From assembly GCA_013002105.1 (NCBI GenBank), contig JABDKS010000453.1, forward strand, positions 1 through 7,148: DNA of 7,148 bases, in the 5' to 3' direction. Below the pieces are notes generated by a model. That model saw only the letters and a list, made by a program, of their open reading frames with translations, made no database searches and was not told where the DNA came from. How positions within the stretch are numbered: position 1 is the stretch's first letter; every line of letters begins with the position of its first letter. A program made the position numbers and the translations under genes. Source of the DNA: Pirellulaceae bacterium (GTDB lineage: Bacteria > Planctomycetota > Planctomycetia > Pirellulales > Pirellulaceae). Positions 1 to 7,148 of the stretch are shown piece by piece.

Positions 1-3000
1 CTTGCTGACGATAGGTCGTAACTAATGTCCTCGCCATCGTCGTCGGTGACCATGATGTCGCCTGATTCGTCGTCATCACTACGTTTGGTCGAGAAAAAGT
101 TGGTGGGTGGCAGCTGCATTTGATCGCCCACGACGATGACCTGCTTTCCCCGGCACAACGCTGGGACGGCGTCTTCGAGTGTTACTTGGCTGGCTTCGTC
201 AAAAATCACCACATCGACCTCGCTAGTCAGCGGCAATGTGTCCGAAACGCTGAGCGGACTCATTAACCACACAGGTTTCAGGTCAACAATGACGCGTCGA
301 CTATCACCAGATAGGAGCGAGCGGATCGGCTTGTAACGCATCTGTTTTCCGAACTCGTGCTCAAGCTCTCGACGACCCTTCTTGTAACCTCGGCGTAGAT
401 TACGTTCTTCACGAGACGTCGGCGTCGGGTCTTCCGAGTCGGCAACGTGTCGTCGGAATCGGGAGCCGATGTTTGCGAGTATTTGGTCACTATTAGACGC
501 GAGCCACTGGTCATACAGTTGCGATAGACGCGCGGCGTGCGCTGCACGAGTGCCACCGGAGAATGATTCAGCGGCGGGATGACGACTTAGCTCCTGGCGG
601 TATGTGTGATCGACAATCGCGGCCTCCAACTCTTGGGGTCGCAAGGGCAGACGGCGGATCGCCCAGGAAAGCCTTTCGGGCATCTGATCGATCGATTCCA
701 GCACGGTTAGAAACCGGGGAAGCTGTTGCAGTGAGGCATCGATTTCATCCAGCCGCAGGAGCAGTTCTGGCAAGTCCAACTCGGACCACGAATCACTGAT
801 GTCGCTGAGCGAATCGCACATGCTGTCGAGCATCGGTTGTGTTTCGACAATTCGCCGCAGCGATTCCGCAGGATGGGACGAATCCATGATCGGGCGATGA
901 ACCAGCTGACGCAATTGATCGTTGCCGGTAAATGCTCGCATCACTCGATGGATTCGCAACGGCCACTGCAGCGGATCCTCCTGCATGTCATATTCTTGTT
1001 TCAGCTCCTGTGCAAACCGCTCGGCGACAGCAGTCTTGTCATGTTCGTCCTGTAGCTGTTGCAACACCCGGACCCAGTCAGGTGGAACCTGGTGCGCATT
1101 GAAGTTGTAACAGCGACGCAAGGTGCCGCGAAGTCGCCACCAACTGGGATTCACGAAATTCGTTAGGCGTCCGTTGAGGGTCTGCGCCAACTGAAGTGCG
1201 GATTGTGTGTCTTGCGGCGATAATTTTTCGATCCAATGTTTGTTCTTCGCGGCAGCTTGCAACGCTACGTCATGAAGACGATGCAACTTGCGAACCCGTT
1301 TGTTCAATTCAGGAGCGACCTGGTTGCCGACCTCTAGCGTTACCATCAAGTTTGCGCTCGCTAGCGGTCCCACCGCATCGGCATACTCGATGATCTCGCG
1401 GACCTGTTCGACAGAGGACCATGCTTGCTGCGACAATCCTGATTCATCGAATCGTTGTTTGATGGCGAGCAGAGATCGTTTGGCAGCGGCGATCTTTGAC
1501 CGCGCTGTCGCGAGTGGTTGCTGTTGGTGAATGATATCAGGACGCAGGATCGCGAGCGGGTGTTCGGCGACGATGCCGTCCGGGCCAATCACTCTCATCT
1601 TTTCGCCAACCGCCGCAACGTGCGGAAGTCCAGCGATCCATTGGGAATAGTCCGGTAACTTTTCGGCTTGTAATGGTGATAACTCAGGGCGATGTTCGCG
1701 AAGCTCCAGGCACCGATCGAGTAACTGCGCCAGCGAAACTCCCGGGCGATCGAGTGGGTCATTCATCAACGTGTTGATCTGTTCCAAATGCGACAACTCT
1801 GACCGCAGCTCGCTTTGTAATTTCTCTCTTTCTGCTCGGTCGAGTCGACTCTTGCCGGTTGAAAAACTTTCGTACGTCGCCTTCAGATCGGCGATTAATT
1901 CTTTCTTGTCGGTTTGCGCGTCGTGGATCAGGCAGCTGACCGGCCCCAATCCGATGGCTTTCAGTCGAGCAAACACCACATCGATCGCCGCGCGTTTCTC
2001 GCAAACAAAAAGCACCCGTTTGTCCTGCGCGACAAAGTCAGCGATCAGGTTCGTGATCGTTTGTGACTTACCGGTTCCTGGTGGTCCCTGGACGATATAG
2101 TTGCTGCCACTGCGGGCTTCGGCGATTGCCGAGCCCTGAGTTGGATCGCAAGCAACGACATCAAAACGGTCCGTGATCGACAGTTCTTGTGGGATTTGTC
2201 TGGCGATTGCCTGTGGCTTGGACGAAAACAATGCCTCGAACGCCTCATTGTCGATCGGCGAATCAATCATCGAATCGTAGTCACGCACCAGTGACATGCG
2301 GCGGTATTTGAACGATGCCAGAGTGATATTGCAGAGGTCGATCTGCCAGTGAAACGGGTTGCCCGTTCCACCCTCTTTCCAGCGATAGAATGTCTTTTCT
2401 GGCGGCGAATCATTGGCATCGGGCGTGATGTGGTGTCGACGCGGCGGCGGTTGCCGGCGAGTCATCGATTCCAAACGCGACTGTGGCGGTCGGATTCTGG
2501 TATCAAAGATGCGAATGCCCAATGGATGGTAATTTGCCGGGTCATAGCTGTATTGCAGGTCGCCGAAATGTCGCACGCCGCGGCCACTGACGCGGGCCCG
2601 TTTTTTGTACAGTTGCAGTCGTTTCTGTGCTTTGGATCGAATCAGATCGATTTGTGGTCGATCGACGATTTCCAGTTCGATCGAGTTGTCACTTTCGGCG
2701 ATTCTGTTTTTCAATGATTCCGCCAAATCGGCAATCGCACCGGCTTGCAGCGAGATTTTTTCGGGCAACTCGATCGCGTAGAGCTGATTCATCAGGTGGC
2801 GCAGGACGGGATTCACTTCGGCCTCCCCATCCACGGCCTCAAGAAGATACTTGTCCTTGACGCCCTTTTTCTTCTTTAAGGAAACGTTGACCAAGACGAG
2901 CGGCGAGTTGTAGTGTTCCGGCGGCGAGGCTTTGACGTTGGCCCAATTCAGGAAAGCCATTGCCAAGCGTAGTCCTCCGAATCCAAATTCAGCGCGTTCG

Positions 3001-4052
3001 CGGCGATCATCCGCGATGATGCGATCCAACACACTTGGCGCGTACAGAACCTCTTGGGCATTGATGTAGCTCGATAGCGAAATCGACTTTCCGCTACCGA
3101 GTCGTTCCACAAAACGGTCGTCAGCGATCAGTAGTTTGTCCAATTCGATTTTGGCCGGATCCAATGACAGCGGCACGGAGGCTTGTGTCACGTTGATGGT
3201 GGCCATGGTGGGCGCAAAATGCAGCAGACGGTTTCGTCGTGTGATCTCGAAAAGCCGCTCTCGCAATCGCCGAAGGATCAGTTCCGATTTCGATTGCGCC
3301 GAAGCCGCTGTGTCAGCAATCAGTTCGGGATCGAAGCCAACCGTCGCAGCGACATCGCGATAGTTTTGCAGCGTCGTGACGAGGGCGTTCAGATCCTGAA
3401 CACGTTTTTGACGTGTTAGTTCGGTCATCCGAAAGATCACTTGGGCGACAACCGGATGCAGGTCCGCTTTTAGATGAAAGAGGTTGTTGCGATGCAGGAC
3501 AAATCGTTGAACATCGTCGATGTCGCGGAAGTCCAAGCCGCAAGCGAGGCTGGCAAGGAGCTGTCCGATGCAAAAAATATCGGTCAGCGGATCGTGGTGT
3601 CCCAGTTGATGTTCCCAAGACAAATAGCCGTTCAAATAAACCGGCCGAGTGACGTCGTGGTCTGCTTGTGCTACACGCAGACTTTTCGTGTTGTCGATTC
3701 CTCTGAGCTGCTCGGTTGCTGTCAGCAGGTCGGTCTCATCGGTAATGTGAGACACGACGTCCAGTGTCGTGGCGTTTTGTTTTTCGCAGTTGGCAATCTT
3801 TTGATTCTCGCGGCGAATGGGCTGTTGGTCGGCGAGTGTAAAAAAGATGCGCCCCGAGTCGACGTGAAGTCGGTTGAGACCTTCTAGTGGGGCGACGAGG
3901 TCAACAGCATGGGCTGCGACAGCTTGTTGCGATAACGAGACGATCGCGGCAAGGACATCATCTGTGGGTAACCCACCATGGGTGACCGCAAGTGCAATCA
4001 ATGCATCGATGTTTTGATCGGTCGCGGTGTGGGGGGAGTCGTCGACTGTCAT
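1..4052 (-). CDS. Kinase-like/DUF4011/superfamily 1 helicase, C-terminus off the window
   Basis: I translated this frame throughout: it has no stop from the ATG at 4052 to the window edge, giving 1350 complete codons, and it continues past position 1. Residues about 35-230 look like a degenerate protein-kinase C-lobe, with SWEHQ (145-149, APE-like), DIFCIG (158-163, helix-F-like) and RQKR near 214-217; no HRD or DFG is visible. DUF4011-like sequence follows, with the signature RRNRLLHF at 272-279. The helicase core has Walker A GPPGTGKS (656-663), motif Ia VLFVCEKRAA (680-689), motif II DEASQ (1285-1289) and motif III GDQMQLPP (1309-1316), all typical of Upf1-like COG1112 helicases. About 620 residues separate motifs I and II, including a likely coiled coil near 736-760. 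Motifs IV-VI and any nuclease or DUF3320-type C-terminus lie outside. The start overlaps the peptidase stop by 4 bp. Helicase ATPase activity is well supported; the nucleic-acid substrate and a defence role are inference. Confidence 0.93.
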   Translation of the reverse strand, partial: MTVDDSPHTATDQNIDALIALAVTHGGLPTDDVLAAIVSLSQQAVAAHAVDLVAPLEGLNRLHVDSGRIFFTLADQQPIRRENQKIANCEKQNATTLDVVSHITDETDLLTATEQLRGIDNTKSLRVAQADHDVTRPVYLNGYLSWEHQLGHHDPLTDIFCIGQLLASLACGLDFRDIDDVQRFVLHRNNLFHLKADLHPVVAQVIFRMTELTRQKRVQDLNALVTTLQNYRDVAATVGFDPELIADTAASAQSKSELILRRLRERLFEITRRNRLLHFAPTMATINVTQASVPLSLDPAKIELDKLLIADDRFVERLGSGKSISLSSYINAQEVLYAPSVLDRIIADDRRERAEFGFGGLRLAMAFLNWANVKASPPEHYNSPLVLVNVSLKKKKGVKDKYLLEAVDGEAEVNPVLRHLMNQLYAIELPEKISLQAGAIADLAESLKNRIAESDNSIELEIVDRPQIDLIRSKAQKRLQLYKKRARVSGRGVRHFGDLQYSYDPANYHPLGIRIFDTRIRPPQSRLESMTRRQPPPRRHHITPDANDSPPEKTFYRWKEGGTGNPFHWQIDLCNITLASFKYRRMSLVRDYDSMIDSPIDNEAFEALFSSKPQAIARQIPQELSITDRFDVVACDPTQGSAIAEARSGSNYIVQGPPGTGKSQTITNLIADFVAQDKRVLFVCEKRAAIDVVFARLKAIGLGPVSCLIHDAQTDKKELIADLKATYESFSTGKSRLDRAEREKLQSELRSELSHLEQINTLMNDPLDRPGVSLAQLLDRCLELREHRPELSPLQAEKLPDYSQWIAGLPHVAAVGEKMRVIGPDGIVAEHPLAILRPDIIHQQQPLATARSKIAAAKRSLLAIKQRFDESGLSQQAWSSVEQVREIIEYADAVGPLASANLMVTLEVGNQVAPELNKRVRKLHRLHDVALQAAAKNKHWIEKLSPQDTQSALQLAQTLNGRLTNFVNPSWWRLRGTLRRCYNFNAHQVPPDWVRVLQQLQDEHDKTAVAERFAQELKQEYDMQEDPLQWPLRIHRVMRAFTGNDQLRQLVHRPIMDSSHPAESLRRIVETQPMLDSMCDSLSDISDSWSELDLPELLLRLDEIDASLQQLPRFLTVLESIDQMPERLSWAIRRLPLRPQELEAAIVDHTYRQELSRHPAAESFSGGTRAAHAARLSQLYDQWLASNSDQILANIGSRFRRHVADSEDPTPTSREERNLRRGYKKGRRELEHEFGKQMRYKPIRSLLSGDSRRVIVDLKPVWLMSPLSVSDTLPLTSEVDVVIFDEASQVTLEDAVPALCRGKQVIVVGDQMQLPPTNFFSTKRSDDDESGDIMVTDDDGEDISYDLSSA

Positions 4053-4061
4053 TCTGCTCCC
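4049..4061 (-). promoter_or_regulatory. Translational coupling site with internal ribosome-binding site
   Basis: The peptidase ends with TGA at 4051-4049 and the helicase begins with ATG at 4052-4050, giving an ATGA overlap. A Shine-Dalgarno-like GGGAG at 4061-4057, inside the last peptidase codons, sits 4 nt before the helicase ATG. This fixes the helicase start and implies a single transcript. Confidence 0.8.
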
Positions 4062-5263
4062 GCCTGTTCCAGCATTTCACGCTTGTTCTGATTGAGGTCG
4101 CGGAGTTGCTTGACGCGAAGTCGAAGTTCTTTTTTGGCTAGATCATGAAATTTCTCTACTAGCGAGAATCGCTCGGCGAGATCCATCGCAACGGCTAGCG
4201 GCAGGTTTTCGTGGTCACGATCGGTGGTGGCAAAGTCAAGCAGGATGTAAGCGACGTAATCCTGGATTGACGCATCGCTGAGGGCTACTTCCTCGGCAAG
4301 GTTGGCAAGCTGTTCTTGTGTCCATTCGGACGGCTCGTAATCGTCAAAAAAAAGCTTGGCATGGGCAATCGCCGCGTCGGTTCGCAGCCAGCGATGTTGG
4401 AACACGCAATCTAAAATCTTGCGAGTCATTGTTGCAAGGTTTGCTTGTGAAAGCAGGTCAAGCGCATCCAGTTTTGGTTGACCTTGAATCATCGCCGCGA
4501 TGGCTTGGTCGGCGTCGGGAACTTGATCTGCCCACAGTTGCAACGCTCTGGCACGTATGAACAATTCGGGGTGGGTTGCATCTTCGGACGCGTTGTCGTT
4601 TGACGAAAGAATTTCCGCGGCTTGTTGTAGATAGGCGGACCCGTCCACATCGCTTGACTGCGTACCGATTTTTAACAATGACGAAATCACGACGATTGGA
4701 TCAGAGACAACATTCTGAGCGACGCGATCACAGAAGACTTCGGAATACAACCTTGCTAGACGTGACGATTCCAGGTGCGTGCTGTCGACCGATGAGTCGT
4801 CGGTCAATGCATCGAGCAGCCGAAACGTGATGCGGTATTTGCCATCATCGATCTGCCAAAGGAGAAAATGGCCCAGTTCGTGGGCCAACACCGCGGTCAG
4901 TTCGGAGTCGCCCAGTTCTCTCAGGAGCGGGCCTTCGAATAGCAGATGTGCGTGAGCGGGTAGCGGAACGGCTGCCGCATTCCAGTTGATCGGATTTTGA
5001 AGTTGATAGAGCGTCACGGGGACATTCAGATGCAGCTTGTCGACGACCTGATCTGCCAGATCATAGACGCGTCGATTCGATTCACGGTCCAGCCGGATCG
5101 TCGTGCGAAGTAAATCGAGCCGAATCGCTTCGATGTCTTGATGGGCAAAGTCCTCCGAAGCAGCCCATTGCCACGCATCAGGCATCGTTTTTTGCAAATG
5201 TTCAGCGATCTCCGTCAGGAACGGCGGAATCGCTGTCGAATCGTCCTGATCGGTTGATGTCAA
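4049..5263 (-). CDS. M48-like zinc metallopeptidase, soluble
   Basis: This 404-residue protein carries the gluzincin signature HELGH at residues 128-132 (bases 4868-4882), preceded by LTAVLA as in M48 peptidases. A likely third zinc ligand, Glu175, lies in SEVFCDR, with Asp179 four residues on, as in the M48 ExxxD pattern. HPELFIRAR (from about 231) resembles the HP...R segment that follows in that family. I see no signal peptide or membrane helix, unlike HtpX, so it is probably cytoplasmic; the last 30 residues look helical and charged. I chose the TTG at 5263 because AGGTAG lies 7 nt upstream. The frame stays open to a TTG at 5332, but that start has no ribosome site and would put the initiation codon inside a palindrome. 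The first ATG would remove a plausible N-terminus. It is translationally coupled to the helicase gene. The substrate is unknown; a partner or host protein is inference. Confidence 0.85.
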   Translation of the reverse strand: MTSTDQDDSTAIPPFLTEIAEHLQKTMPDAWQWAASEDFAHQDIEAIRLDLLRTTIRLDRESNRRVYDLADQVVDKLHLNVPVTLYQLQNPINWNAAAVPLPAHAHLLFEGPLLRELGDSELTAVLAHELGHFLLWQIDDGKYRITFRLLDALTDDSSVDSTHLESSRLARLYSEVFCDRVAQNVVSDPIVVISSLLKIGTQSSDVDGSAYLQQAAEILSSNDNASEDATHPELFIRARALQLWADQVPDADQAIAAMIQGQPKLDALDLLSQANLATMTRKILDCVFQHRWLRTDAAIAHAKLFFDDYEPSEWTQEQLANLAEEVALSDASIQDYVAYILLDFATTDRDHENLPLAVAMDLAERFSLVEKFHDLAKKELRLRVKQLRDLNQNKREMLEQAGAE

Positions 5264-5270
5264 AGCAGTT

Positions 5271-5276
5271 CTACCT
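5271..5276 (-). promoter_or_regulatory. Ribosome-binding site deciding the peptidase start
   Basis: AGGTAG on the minus strand lies 7 nt before the TTG at 5263. Neither the upstream TTG at 5332 nor the first in-frame ATG at 5185 has a comparable site, so this one decides the start. TTG starts are less common than ATG, so the call is moderate. Confidence 0.5.
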
Positions 5277-5314
5277 ATCGTCAACGCAGGTTGATTGACG
5301 ATGGTCCAGCACGG

Positions 5315-5370
5315 TCCATTGCAATACAGCAATCGCGATTGCGACGATCGATGGTGGTCGGTGCAATGGA
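5315..5370. repeat. Nested palindromes upstream of the peptidase gene
   Basis: A perfect 14-bp palindrome, GCAATCGCGATTGC, occupies 5329-5342. It is enclosed by a 9-bp perfect inverted repeat, TCCATTGCA at 5315-5323 and TGCAATGGA at 5362-5370. The structure lies between the zinc-ribbon gene stop (5411) and the peptidase start (5263). It could be an operator or an RNA structure in the leader. No U-run follows it, so it does not look like an intrinsic terminator. Outside it, the 5264-5410 gap shows only the ribosome site. Confidence 0.5.
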
Positions 5371-5410
5371 TGGATCCCGTAGAACACGTCGCGTTTGTTT
5401 CCTTGACCGG

Positions 5411-6439
5411 CTACTGAATCTTCAGCGACTCGAAGAACTGTTCGGGTTTATCAAGTTCGCGTTCGTTCGGCCGTGCCGCTCGAGTGCCACCGACCAGGTC
5501 TTTGATTTTAGAGTAGGGCGAGTAGGCCGTTAGAACGAGCTTGCCATCTTTGATAAAAATCTCGACTTCGGAACCTTTAGCGGCGCTCGCCCCGGAGGTA
5601 ATCGTGCCGGCATAGCCTTTGACACCGCTGCGGGTGACCGGTTTTCGATTGGACATCGAGATTTTCATGTTCTCGACAAGCAGATCGAGCGTCGGTTTGC
5701 TGCCGTCGGGCATGTTGGGCAATTGAGATACCGCAATGGAGTACTCCGATCCTGATTCGGCACGTTTGAATGCACGTTCCTTGATCACAACGCCGAACCC
5801 TTGGTTCTGAGTCTTGGTGCGATCGTTCCCTTTGCCCGGCATATTCAACGTGCAGCCTTCGAAGGTGATTGTCTGCCAGCCGCTGTGTTTGGGGCCGAGG
5901 ACTCCGGTCGCGACCAGTGCCACGCCACCACCACAAAGCAGCAAACCGACCAGCGCGACGCCACCGAGAATGCCAAGCACTTTGGTCGTTGCGCTGGACC
6001 CACCAGTACCCTTCTTATTCTTCGGTTTAGCCGGCTTCTTTTGCTTCTTGGACTTTTTTGCCGCAGGCTTGGGCGGTGCGGAACGGTAGGCGGGAACGCC
6101 ACCGGCACCGGCGGCGGGAAACCCGCCGGCGGGCAAACCGGGGAGATTGGAAAAGGGATCGTCCGCCGGCGCGGTTGGTTGCGGTGCTGGACGCTGTGAA
6201 GGCGGACGTTGCGCTGCGGGTTTCTGTGCAGCAGGGTTCTGCGCTGGGGGTCGTTGCGCAGCGGGTGGATTGGACGCCGATTGTGGCTTGGCACCGCCGG
6301 GTGTCGTCGGCTTGGCAGTGGCGGCGGCCGGGACCATCAATACTTTGCTGCATTTTGGGCACGTGACCTTCACCTTGCCGGCGGCGTTAATTTTCAGCTG
6401 TGTTTTGCAGCCGGGACAGGTGACGAGTCTTGAACTCAT
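5411..6439 (-). CDS. Zinc-ribbon, single-pass membrane protein with Pro/Ala-rich linker
   Basis: The 342-residue product begins with a small zinc ribbon: Cys8/Cys11 (CPGC) and Cys27/Cys30 (CPKC), in the style of MJ0042-type N-terminal ribbons. Residues about 38-125 form a low-complexity linker rich in Pro, Ala and Gln, with repeated AAQ-(R/K/N)-P units at 60-88. A Lys-rich block (about 128-143) precedes one hydrophobic helix at about 154-180. The remaining 160 residues, starting near SGWQTITFEG, form a globular domain I do not recognise. The positive block before the helix favours the N-terminal ribbon being cytoplasmic and the C-terminal domain outside. The start is well placed: GAGG lies 5 nt before ATG 6439. 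The gene ends 147 bp before the peptidase start, so a shared transcript is possible but not shown. The function is unknown; this architecture is typical of planctomycete proteins of uncharacterised role. Confidence 0.88.
   Translation of the reverse strand: MSSRLVTCPGCKTQLKINAAGKVKVTCPKCSKVLMVPAAATAKPTTPGGAKPQSASNPPAAQRPPAQNPAAQKPAAQRPPSQRPAPQPTAPADDPFSNLPGLPAGGFPAAGAGGVPAYRSAPPKPAAKKSKKQKKPAKPKNKKGTGGSSATTKVLGILGGVALVGLLLCGGGVALVATGVLGPKHSGWQTITFEGCTLNMPGKGNDRTKTQNQGFGVVIKERAFKRAESGSEYSIAVSQLPNMPDGSKPTLDLLVENMKISMSNRKPVTRSGVKGYAGTITSGASAAKGSEVEIFIKDGKLVLTAYSPYSKIKDLVGGTRAARPNERELDKPEQFFESLKIQ
6176..6262 (-). repeat. Imperfect short tandem repeats coding the Pro/Ala/Gln linker
   Basis: Residues 60-88 of the zinc-ribbon protein repeat units such as AAQRPPAQNPAAQKPAAQRP. 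The DNA repeats imperfectly as well (gcgctg, gtgcag and cgttgcgc motifs on the plus strand). Such tracts can change length by slippage. The linker is probably disordered. Confidence 0.6.
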
Positions 6440-6444
6440 GGAAA

Positions 6445-6448
6445 CCTC
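6445..6448 (-). promoter_or_regulatory. Ribosome-binding site of the zinc-ribbon gene
   Basis: GAGG (context TGAGGT) lies 5 nt upstream of ATG 6439 and supports that start. Confidence 0.6.
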
Positions 6449-6530
6449 AGGTCGATCGCAGGGGAAATCGCTGCGACATTCAATGGACGGTTGTGATGTT
6501 GGATTCGTTTGTTGACGACCACTTCGGTTC

Positions 6531-6557
6531 TTTATACGAACGATCGATGTGTGTCAC
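6531..6557 (-). promoter_or_regulatory. Possible sigma-70-type promoter for the zinc-ribbon gene
   Basis: On the minus strand GTGACA (6557-6552) and TATAAA (6536-6531) resemble -35 and -10 boxes, about 90 nt before ATG 6439. The spacer is only 15 bp, shorter than the usual 16-18, so this is weak. The rest of the 6440-6602 intergenic stretch shows nothing else I can name. Confidence 0.2.
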
Positions 6558-6602
6558 CGGACCAATGCCCGCTTGATTGACGTTATAGCAAGAGCGGTAT
6601 GA

Positions 6603-7148
6603 TTACTTCCATCGTATCAAAGACGCATCCCATTTATCGCTCCAGCGTTCCCGTCGCTGGCGCACCCAACGAAACGCTGGATGTAGCATTTGCCTTCGAC
6701 AGGAGGGTCGCACCCTTGCCCGTACTGCGGTGGCACAATCCACGGCGATAGACTCGTCGACCGAAAAACCGCCGACCGGGCTGACAACCAATATTGACAT
6801 GGAATGAGACTGCGGCGCGTGCAGGCGGGCAAATTTCGGACAGAATTTCAAGGTGTCTGGGTCAGTCGCGCTTGCAGGGGCGATCGAGCGAACGGGATGA
6901 TTCTTTTCCATCGCGATCCACTTCGACAGAATCAAAATTTCTTGAGGATTTAGGGGTTCCTGAGGAGGCATGGAGATTTCATCGTGCGTTCCCGATACCA
7001 CCTGCCAGAGCAGGCTATTGTCAGGGTCGCCAGCAACGATGGCTGGACCAGATGATCCACCTTTGCGGACGGCTTCGCGCGAGTCGAGCCTCAAACCACC
7101 TTCGGCGCGATCGCCGTGGCACTCCAGACAATGCTCAGTGAGTAGTGG
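6603..7148 (-). CDS. Planctomycete cytochrome c (PSCyt1-like), 5' end off the window, atypical tail
   Basis: The frame enters at the window edge and stops at TAA 6605-6603 (181 codons visible). The haem-binding motif CLECH lies at 7130-7116. After it come GGLRLDSREA, KGG, SGPAI, GDPDNSLL, ISMPP and a helix ending ILSKWIAM. This is the usual order of the PSCyt1 domain, a c-type cytochrome fold that would bind haem covalently outside the cytoplasmic membrane, with the distal Met expected in MPP. The match ends near base 6909. In the common planctomycete proteins the domain is followed by large PSD1-type domains (DUF1549/DUF1553). Here about 100 residues of Arg/Trp-rich, unrelated sequence follow instead. 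No other frame restores the expected continuation, so this may be a truncated gene, a remnant, or a small cytochrome whose real end is disguised. The start codon lies beyond 7148, because a start at 7094 would remove the haem motif. Confidence 0.65.
   Translation of the reverse strand, partial: PLLTEHCLECHGDRAEGGLRLDSREAVRKGGSSGPAIVAGDPDNSLLWQVVSGTHDEISMPPQEPLNPQEILILSKWIAMEKNHPVRSIAPASATDPDTLKFCPKFARLHAPQSHSMSILVVSPVGGFSVDESIAVDCATAVRARVRPSCRRQMLHPAFRWVRQRRERWSDKWDASLIRWK
6641..6681. repeat. Inverted repeat with two alternative hairpins
   Basis: TCCAGCGTT at 6641-6649 is perfectly complementary to AACGCTGGA at 6673-6681, with a 23-nt loop. A second copy of CGCTGG at 6655-6660, inside the loop, can pair instead with CCAGCG at 6642-6647, leaving a 7-nt loop. 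The element lies in the unusual tail of the cytochrome frame, close to its stop. No U-run follows on either strand, so a simple terminator is unlikely. Confidence 0.45.

Follow-up and report, generated by a model that had tools for sequence, protein, structure and literature searches.

A gene pair encoding an M48-type metalloprotease and a DUF4011 helicase with a half-pseudokinase N-terminus in Pirellulaceae: a possible conflict system

Organization of the locus

The window analyzed here is a stretch of 7,148 nucleotides (nt) from a Pirellulaceae bacterium (contig JABDKS010000453.1, positions 1 to 7,148), and its main subject is a pair of overlapping genes, termed A and B, which encode an M48-type metallopeptidase (A) and a protein composed of a half-pseudokinase, a DUF4011 domain and a superfamily 1 (SF1) helicase (B). 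Gene A comes first on the minus strand, and gene B lies downstream of it, running off the window edge. The features of the pair are as follows:

4049..5332, minus: gene A, M48-type metallopeptidase; 427 amino acids (aa) as the longest open reading frame (ORF), or 404 aa with a start at 5263
4868..4882, minus: HELGH of gene A, zinc-binding and catalytic
4727..4741, minus: ExxxD of gene A
4049..4052, minus: ATGA, bases shared by the stop of gene A and the start of gene B
3..4052, minus: gene B, complete at the N-terminus and visible over 1350 aa, with its C-terminus past the window edge
3342..4016, minus: kinase C-lobe-like domain of gene B (residues about 13-237), N-lobe absent
3885..3893, minus: APL at residues 54-56, close to where kinases have HRD
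3612..3614, minus: E147, aligned to the kinase APE glutamate
3579..3581, minus: D158, aligned to the kinase alpha-F aspartate
3402..3404, minus: R217, aligned to the kinase alpha-I arginine
2793..3257, minus: DUF4011 (residues 266-420)
2064..2087, minus: helicase motif I, GPPGTGKS
189..200, minus: helicase motif II, DEAS

An NTGA overlap is present at 18 of 23 A-B junctions (22 loci and the window), or at 17 of 22 without the broken locus L128; other overlaps comprise 8 nt with an in-frame ATG (L005 and L131) and 11 nt as counted from the longest frame (L004). At a further locus (L125) the two genes are 828 nt apart, far enough to accommodate an ORF of at most 240 aa.

Linkage and distribution of the gene pair

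At all 23 viewable loci, gene A precedes B in the same orientation (with G001/L006 and G206 counted once; more overlap between named and unnamed loci is possible), and this M48 gene is a conserved partner of which the preliminary description of this DNA had made no mention. An order-level sample yielded B at E<=1e-10 in 14 of 296 genomes, each time with A upstream on the same strand (14/14). At the phylum level, a B match at E<=0.001 was obtained in 11 of 294 sampled genomes, seven of them strong (E<=5e-33); A adjoins B in six of these seven, and the seventh (G162) stops at a contig end. All six genomes with a strong match to A (E<1e-50) in the same sample also carry B. Weak matches were dropped for both genes (4 of 11 for B, with E from 5e-5 to 8e-4, and 18 of 24 genomes for A, with E from 6e-7 to 0.001). 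Among the seven named loci, A is present in six, and one (L003) is cut. Relatives of B beyond Planctomycetota occur in a Bacteroidetes metagenome-assembled genome (L004), in Verrucomicrobiae and in Anaeromyxobacter (P0070, P0110). The plasmid search gave no match to A and no plasmid record covering 80% of B, and one scan of viral contigs with the B protein of L006 found no relative. A decayed copy of the pair, with B in short broken frames and A shortened, was observed at L128:9588-11334.

Gene A

Judging by its motifs and Pfam matches, A is an M48-type metalloprotease with intact active-site motifs. Pfam M48 (PF01435) matches it above the cut-off, its predicted fold is of the M48 type with M48 peptidases heading the fold list, and both HExxH and ExxxD are present, with H128, E129, H132, E175 and D179 (numbered on the 404-aa form) each conserved in 52 of 52 aligned relatives. 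The protein shares the catalytic core and these motifs with known M48 peptidases (Ste24p, HtpX, BepA) and differs from them in having no strong hydrophobic segment (maximum 19-aa hydropathy 1.34 in the window's A), in its helical C-terminal region of ~150 residues, and in the coupling of its gene to a helicase. A comparison of its sequence with the PDB gave no match at E<=0.01. A second group of M48 proteins (P0173-P0209; mostly ~385 aa and ~30% identical to A, with Kribbella in many of the names) was also noted; a plasmid search with one Kribbella member found no match.

Gene B

The preliminary description had read the N-terminal part of B as a kinase-like domain and suggested a pseudokinase, and both points are borne out: the AlphaFold prediction (predicted local distance difference test, pLDDT, 86.6) has a kinase fold at the N-terminus, of which the C-lobe alone is present, with the N-lobe, HRD and DFG all missing. 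In the alignment with kinases, A54 falls on the HRD histidine and is followed by an insertion. The APL tripeptide is nearly invariant (P in all 121 sequences, A and L in 120 each), and E147, D158 and R217 are conserved in 121 of 121. As modelled, the domain is a protein kinase fold cut down to its C-lobe, with the scaffold residues retained. At 17 of the 22 intact junctions the end of A already runs into the first codon of B, leaving no room for an N-lobe between the two genes, and a hidden N-lobe or a misplaced B start was rejected on this ground. According to a study of conflict systems (PMC7159879), catalytic residues are disrupted in the majority of the kinase domains that it covers, suggesting a chiefly non-enzymatic role. 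The B protein would offer a natural example of a kinase fold reduced to the C-lobe and kept for its scaffold only.

The earlier assignment of the following region to DUF4011 and a COG1112-type helicase was likewise confirmed by the Pfam DUF4011 match and the presence of SF1 motifs. The visible part of B in the window contains only DUF4011 and AAA_11 as Pfam domains; its full-length relatives L006 (62% identity to the window protein over the best segment), L001 and L004 have the order DUF4011, AAA_11, AAA_12, MTES_1575, and these three together with P0048 and P0110 carry DUF4011, AAA_11/AAA_12 and MTES_1575 above Pfam cut-offs in one chain. A search with the N-terminal region gave 226 matches, of which the 120 listed are covered by the counts below. 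Most of them (112 of 120) exceed 1,600 aa, and among these long relatives 111 have helicase motif I and all 112 have motifs II-V, with the search pattern for motif VI matching 96.

The C-terminal MTES_1575 nuclease domain of the B relatives is probably degenerate and, to judge from its motifs, looks dead. A GxECDG or GIETDG site, with Glu kept, is seen in Hhe and most outside relatives (12 of 15; a sixteenth, L090, was dropped for a C-terminus with no visible motif). The Glu of GIECDG, taken as catalytic from this pattern and from what is known of PD-(D/E)XK nucleases, is kept in none of 111 readable B relatives; its place is occupied by Leu (93), Met (10), Phe (5), Val (2), Gln (1) or a gap (1) in the 112 proteins. 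The Gly that follows is present in 17 of 112 vs. 15 of 15 outside relatives. The nuclease domain retains its first Asp in 103 of these 112 B relatives and the ECDG Asp in 109. A looser motif pattern found the site in 73 of 112 B relatives, with Glu in none of these.

Kinship with anti-phage helicases

Among curated families, the helicase matches anti-phage ones best. Among PADLOC models, the window protein matched PDC-S37 (E 9.9e-116), Hhe (1.5e-45) and MkoA (2.1e-23). The scores reached 346 bits (truncated window protein) and 673 bits (full-length B of L006) for ProA (NF058533), below the cut-off of 1500, and 222 and 443 bits for Hhe (NF042953), below the cut-off of 2000.

In a tree of 24 rows (of 27; MkoA L092, the MkoA-model match L096 and P0030 were left out), 12 B rows and six rows of Hhe/ProA/PDC-S37 type lie on one side of a branch with 100/100 support, and three MkoA and three shorter MkoA-model matches lie on the other. 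The row of the window protein covers 47% of the alignment columns, and MkoA L093 and Hhe form long branches. A clade uniting B with MkoA is rejected by the approximately unbiased test (p-AU 7.6e-8, on three MkoA rows; 0.00017 in a smaller tree that lost 7 of 27 rows, Hhe included, to the motif II pattern). The B helicase groups, by this phylogeny, with the DUF4011 defence helicases of Hhe/ProA type; the defence kinship proposed in the preliminary description is likely. The three short MkoA-model matches (L099-L101) are presumably IGHMBP2-like.

Each of these families resembles B in part. MkoA likewise combines a kinase-fold N-terminus with a COG1112-type helicase but differs in having HRD and DFG (L093-L095), and its planctomycete representatives L093 and L095 have Pfam kinase domains but, at E<=0.001, no match to DUF4011 or MTES_1575. 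ProA and PDC-S37 share with B the order DUF4011, SF1 helicase, MTES_1575 (as in L089) as well as their place in the tree, whereas the N-terminal domains of three ProA proteins have no detectable likeness to that of B (hhalign probability 0.1), so that a common N-terminus was rejected, and no M48 gene is listed beside three ProA loci in gene tables that are incomplete. Hhe has DUF4011, an SF1 helicase and MTES_1575 and stands on the same side of the tree, but it keeps GIECDG, and its DUF4011 starts at residue 30 (L087), leaving no half-kinase ahead of this domain. By eye, the N-terminal 372 residues of a protein above the ProA cut-off (L089:2033-3148) look transglutaminase-like, so that modules preceding the DUF4011 core may be exchanged.

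Proposed function and alternative explanations

The combination of an intact helicase, an intact protease, a lost nuclease Glu, a scaffold-only kinase and near-obligate gene coupling points to a sensor helicase governing a protease. Tentatively, and at somewhat short of even chances, we interpret A and B as a translationally coupled two-gene conflict system in which B is a nucleic-acid-sensing helicase controlling the protease effector A. We infer contact between A and B, sensing, the effector status of the protease and a defence role, the last of which is likely and would probably be directed against phages. The DUF4011-SF1 helicase of B would sense foreign nucleic acid or translocate on it, and the degenerate nuclease domain would probably only bind DNA or RNA. 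The kinase half, with no normal ATP binding, would act as a platform for the docking of A and for relay to it. Protein A, an M48 zinc protease in soluble form, would be restrained until B engages its ligand; once released, A would cleave a host or phage protein. A more specific version, conceivable if rather doubtful, is that a helicase lineage of the ProA/Hhe kind swapped its effector: the nuclease would have died, and the half-kinase would have become an allosteric clamp linking sensing to the M48 protease. In the related helicases, a nuclease domain is present and is the presumed means of action; the proposed system, if true, would connect an SF1 helicase that senses nucleic acid with proteolysis, as a form of protease-based immunity. 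No description of an M48-DUF4011 helicase pair was found among the titles and abstract openings listed, subscription papers being mostly outside reach.

Several observations weigh against a protease-effector system. In the window protein the nuclease domain lies past the window edge and is judged by that of the relatives, and Glu is also missing in three of the 15 outside relatives (L086 GIICDG, L089 GILVDG, L153 GIIVDG), so that its loss need not mean a takeover by the protease; nuclease loss may be recurrent within the DUF4011 helicase group. As a single clade, B has a support of only 56/29, and the half-kinase branch may therefore be a grade around other DUF4011 helicases. No natural A-B fusion was found; in the sole apparent case (P0030), A aligns to residue 302 only and is followed by ~100 unrelated residues and then B, which reads as a likely frameshift. 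The defence-island signal is also weak: among the 86 neighboring ORFs (all 86 mechanically defined ORFs of at least 260 aa at 17 loci), no PADLOC family matched more than two members, for the best 25 of 130 families.

Three other explanations were weighed against a sensor helicase with a protease effector. It is fairly unlikely that B acts as a helicase-nuclease effector similar to Hhe and ProA, with a divergent but active MTES_1575 domain, and that A processes or licenses it; the retention of both Asp residues in most relatives and the lack of Glu in two proteins above the ProA cut-off (L086 and L089) would suit this model, and the uniform loss of Glu in B together with the scarcity of the adjacent Gly argues against it. 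Rather improbable is a genome-maintenance accessory outside defence, in the manner of SPRTN/Wss1, in which the helicase strips or exposes a protein crosslinked to DNA and the HExxH protease cleaves it. Consistent with such a DNA-protein crosslink (DPC) repair pair are the weak SprT-like Pfam matches to A, the low-ranking 6mdw (titled as protease-dependent DPC repair) in the Foldseek list for A (prob 0.69, E 1.6) and the WGR domains hand-counted in 50 of the 120 listed B relatives and confirmed in two; nevertheless, the SprT matches fall below the cut-off that M48 exceeds, M48 peptidases head the fold list, the best curated helicase matches are anti-phage, and strong matches are confined to seven of the 294 genomes sampled at the phylum level and 14 of the 296 at the order level.

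Descent from Mokosh type I, suggested in the preliminary description, has hardly any probability left. The kinase-fold N-terminus, the COG1112-type helicase and the PADLOC match to MkoA speak for it, but the match to PDC-S37 is far better, the tree rejects a common clade, and the domain make-up disagrees: DUF4011 and MTES_1575 of the B kin are missing from the two MkoA representatives, and in place of the complete Ser/Thr kinase domain of Mokosh type I, B has only a C-lobe without HRD. A C-terminal nuclease, for which the same description suggested a search, is present in the three full-length relatives as the MTES_1575 end; these three proteins gave no PLD match, and the neighbor scan covered the best 25 of 130 families.

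Neighboring genes

PADLOC matches of the neighbors (best 25 of 130 families) comprised DruE with one member, SNF2-type helicase models with two and kinase models with one, and those of the control ORFs (86 of 140 such ORFs in four genomes that also supplied neighbors; best 25 of 37 families) comprised kinase models with at most four members and RtcR-like regulators with two. DruE and a NERD helicase lie at L119, an SNF2-type helicase at L122, and a type I restriction subunit at L001 (outside the 86 ORFs and scanned separately); many further neighbors look ordinary by eye. B is followed at L123:2183-5512 by a gene encoding DUF4132 and DUF7737, the ends of the two sharing 4 nt, and this gene is a possible third member at the locus; DUF4132 proteins often have WGR domains, as do some B relatives. 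Upstream neighbors at L130:1574-5615 resemble, by eye, RtcB, a MoxR-type ATPase (with no PADLOC match) and one further protein.

Two other minus-strand genes lie in the window itself. A 342-aa protein (5411-6439) has an MJ0042-like zinc ribbon (below cut-offs) and, judged by eye, a region rich in Pro and Ala and a single hydrophobic segment, and a 5'-open fragment (6603-7148) contains CLECH (CxxCH) and is, as we take it by eye, similar to a planctomycete cytochrome-c-like domain.

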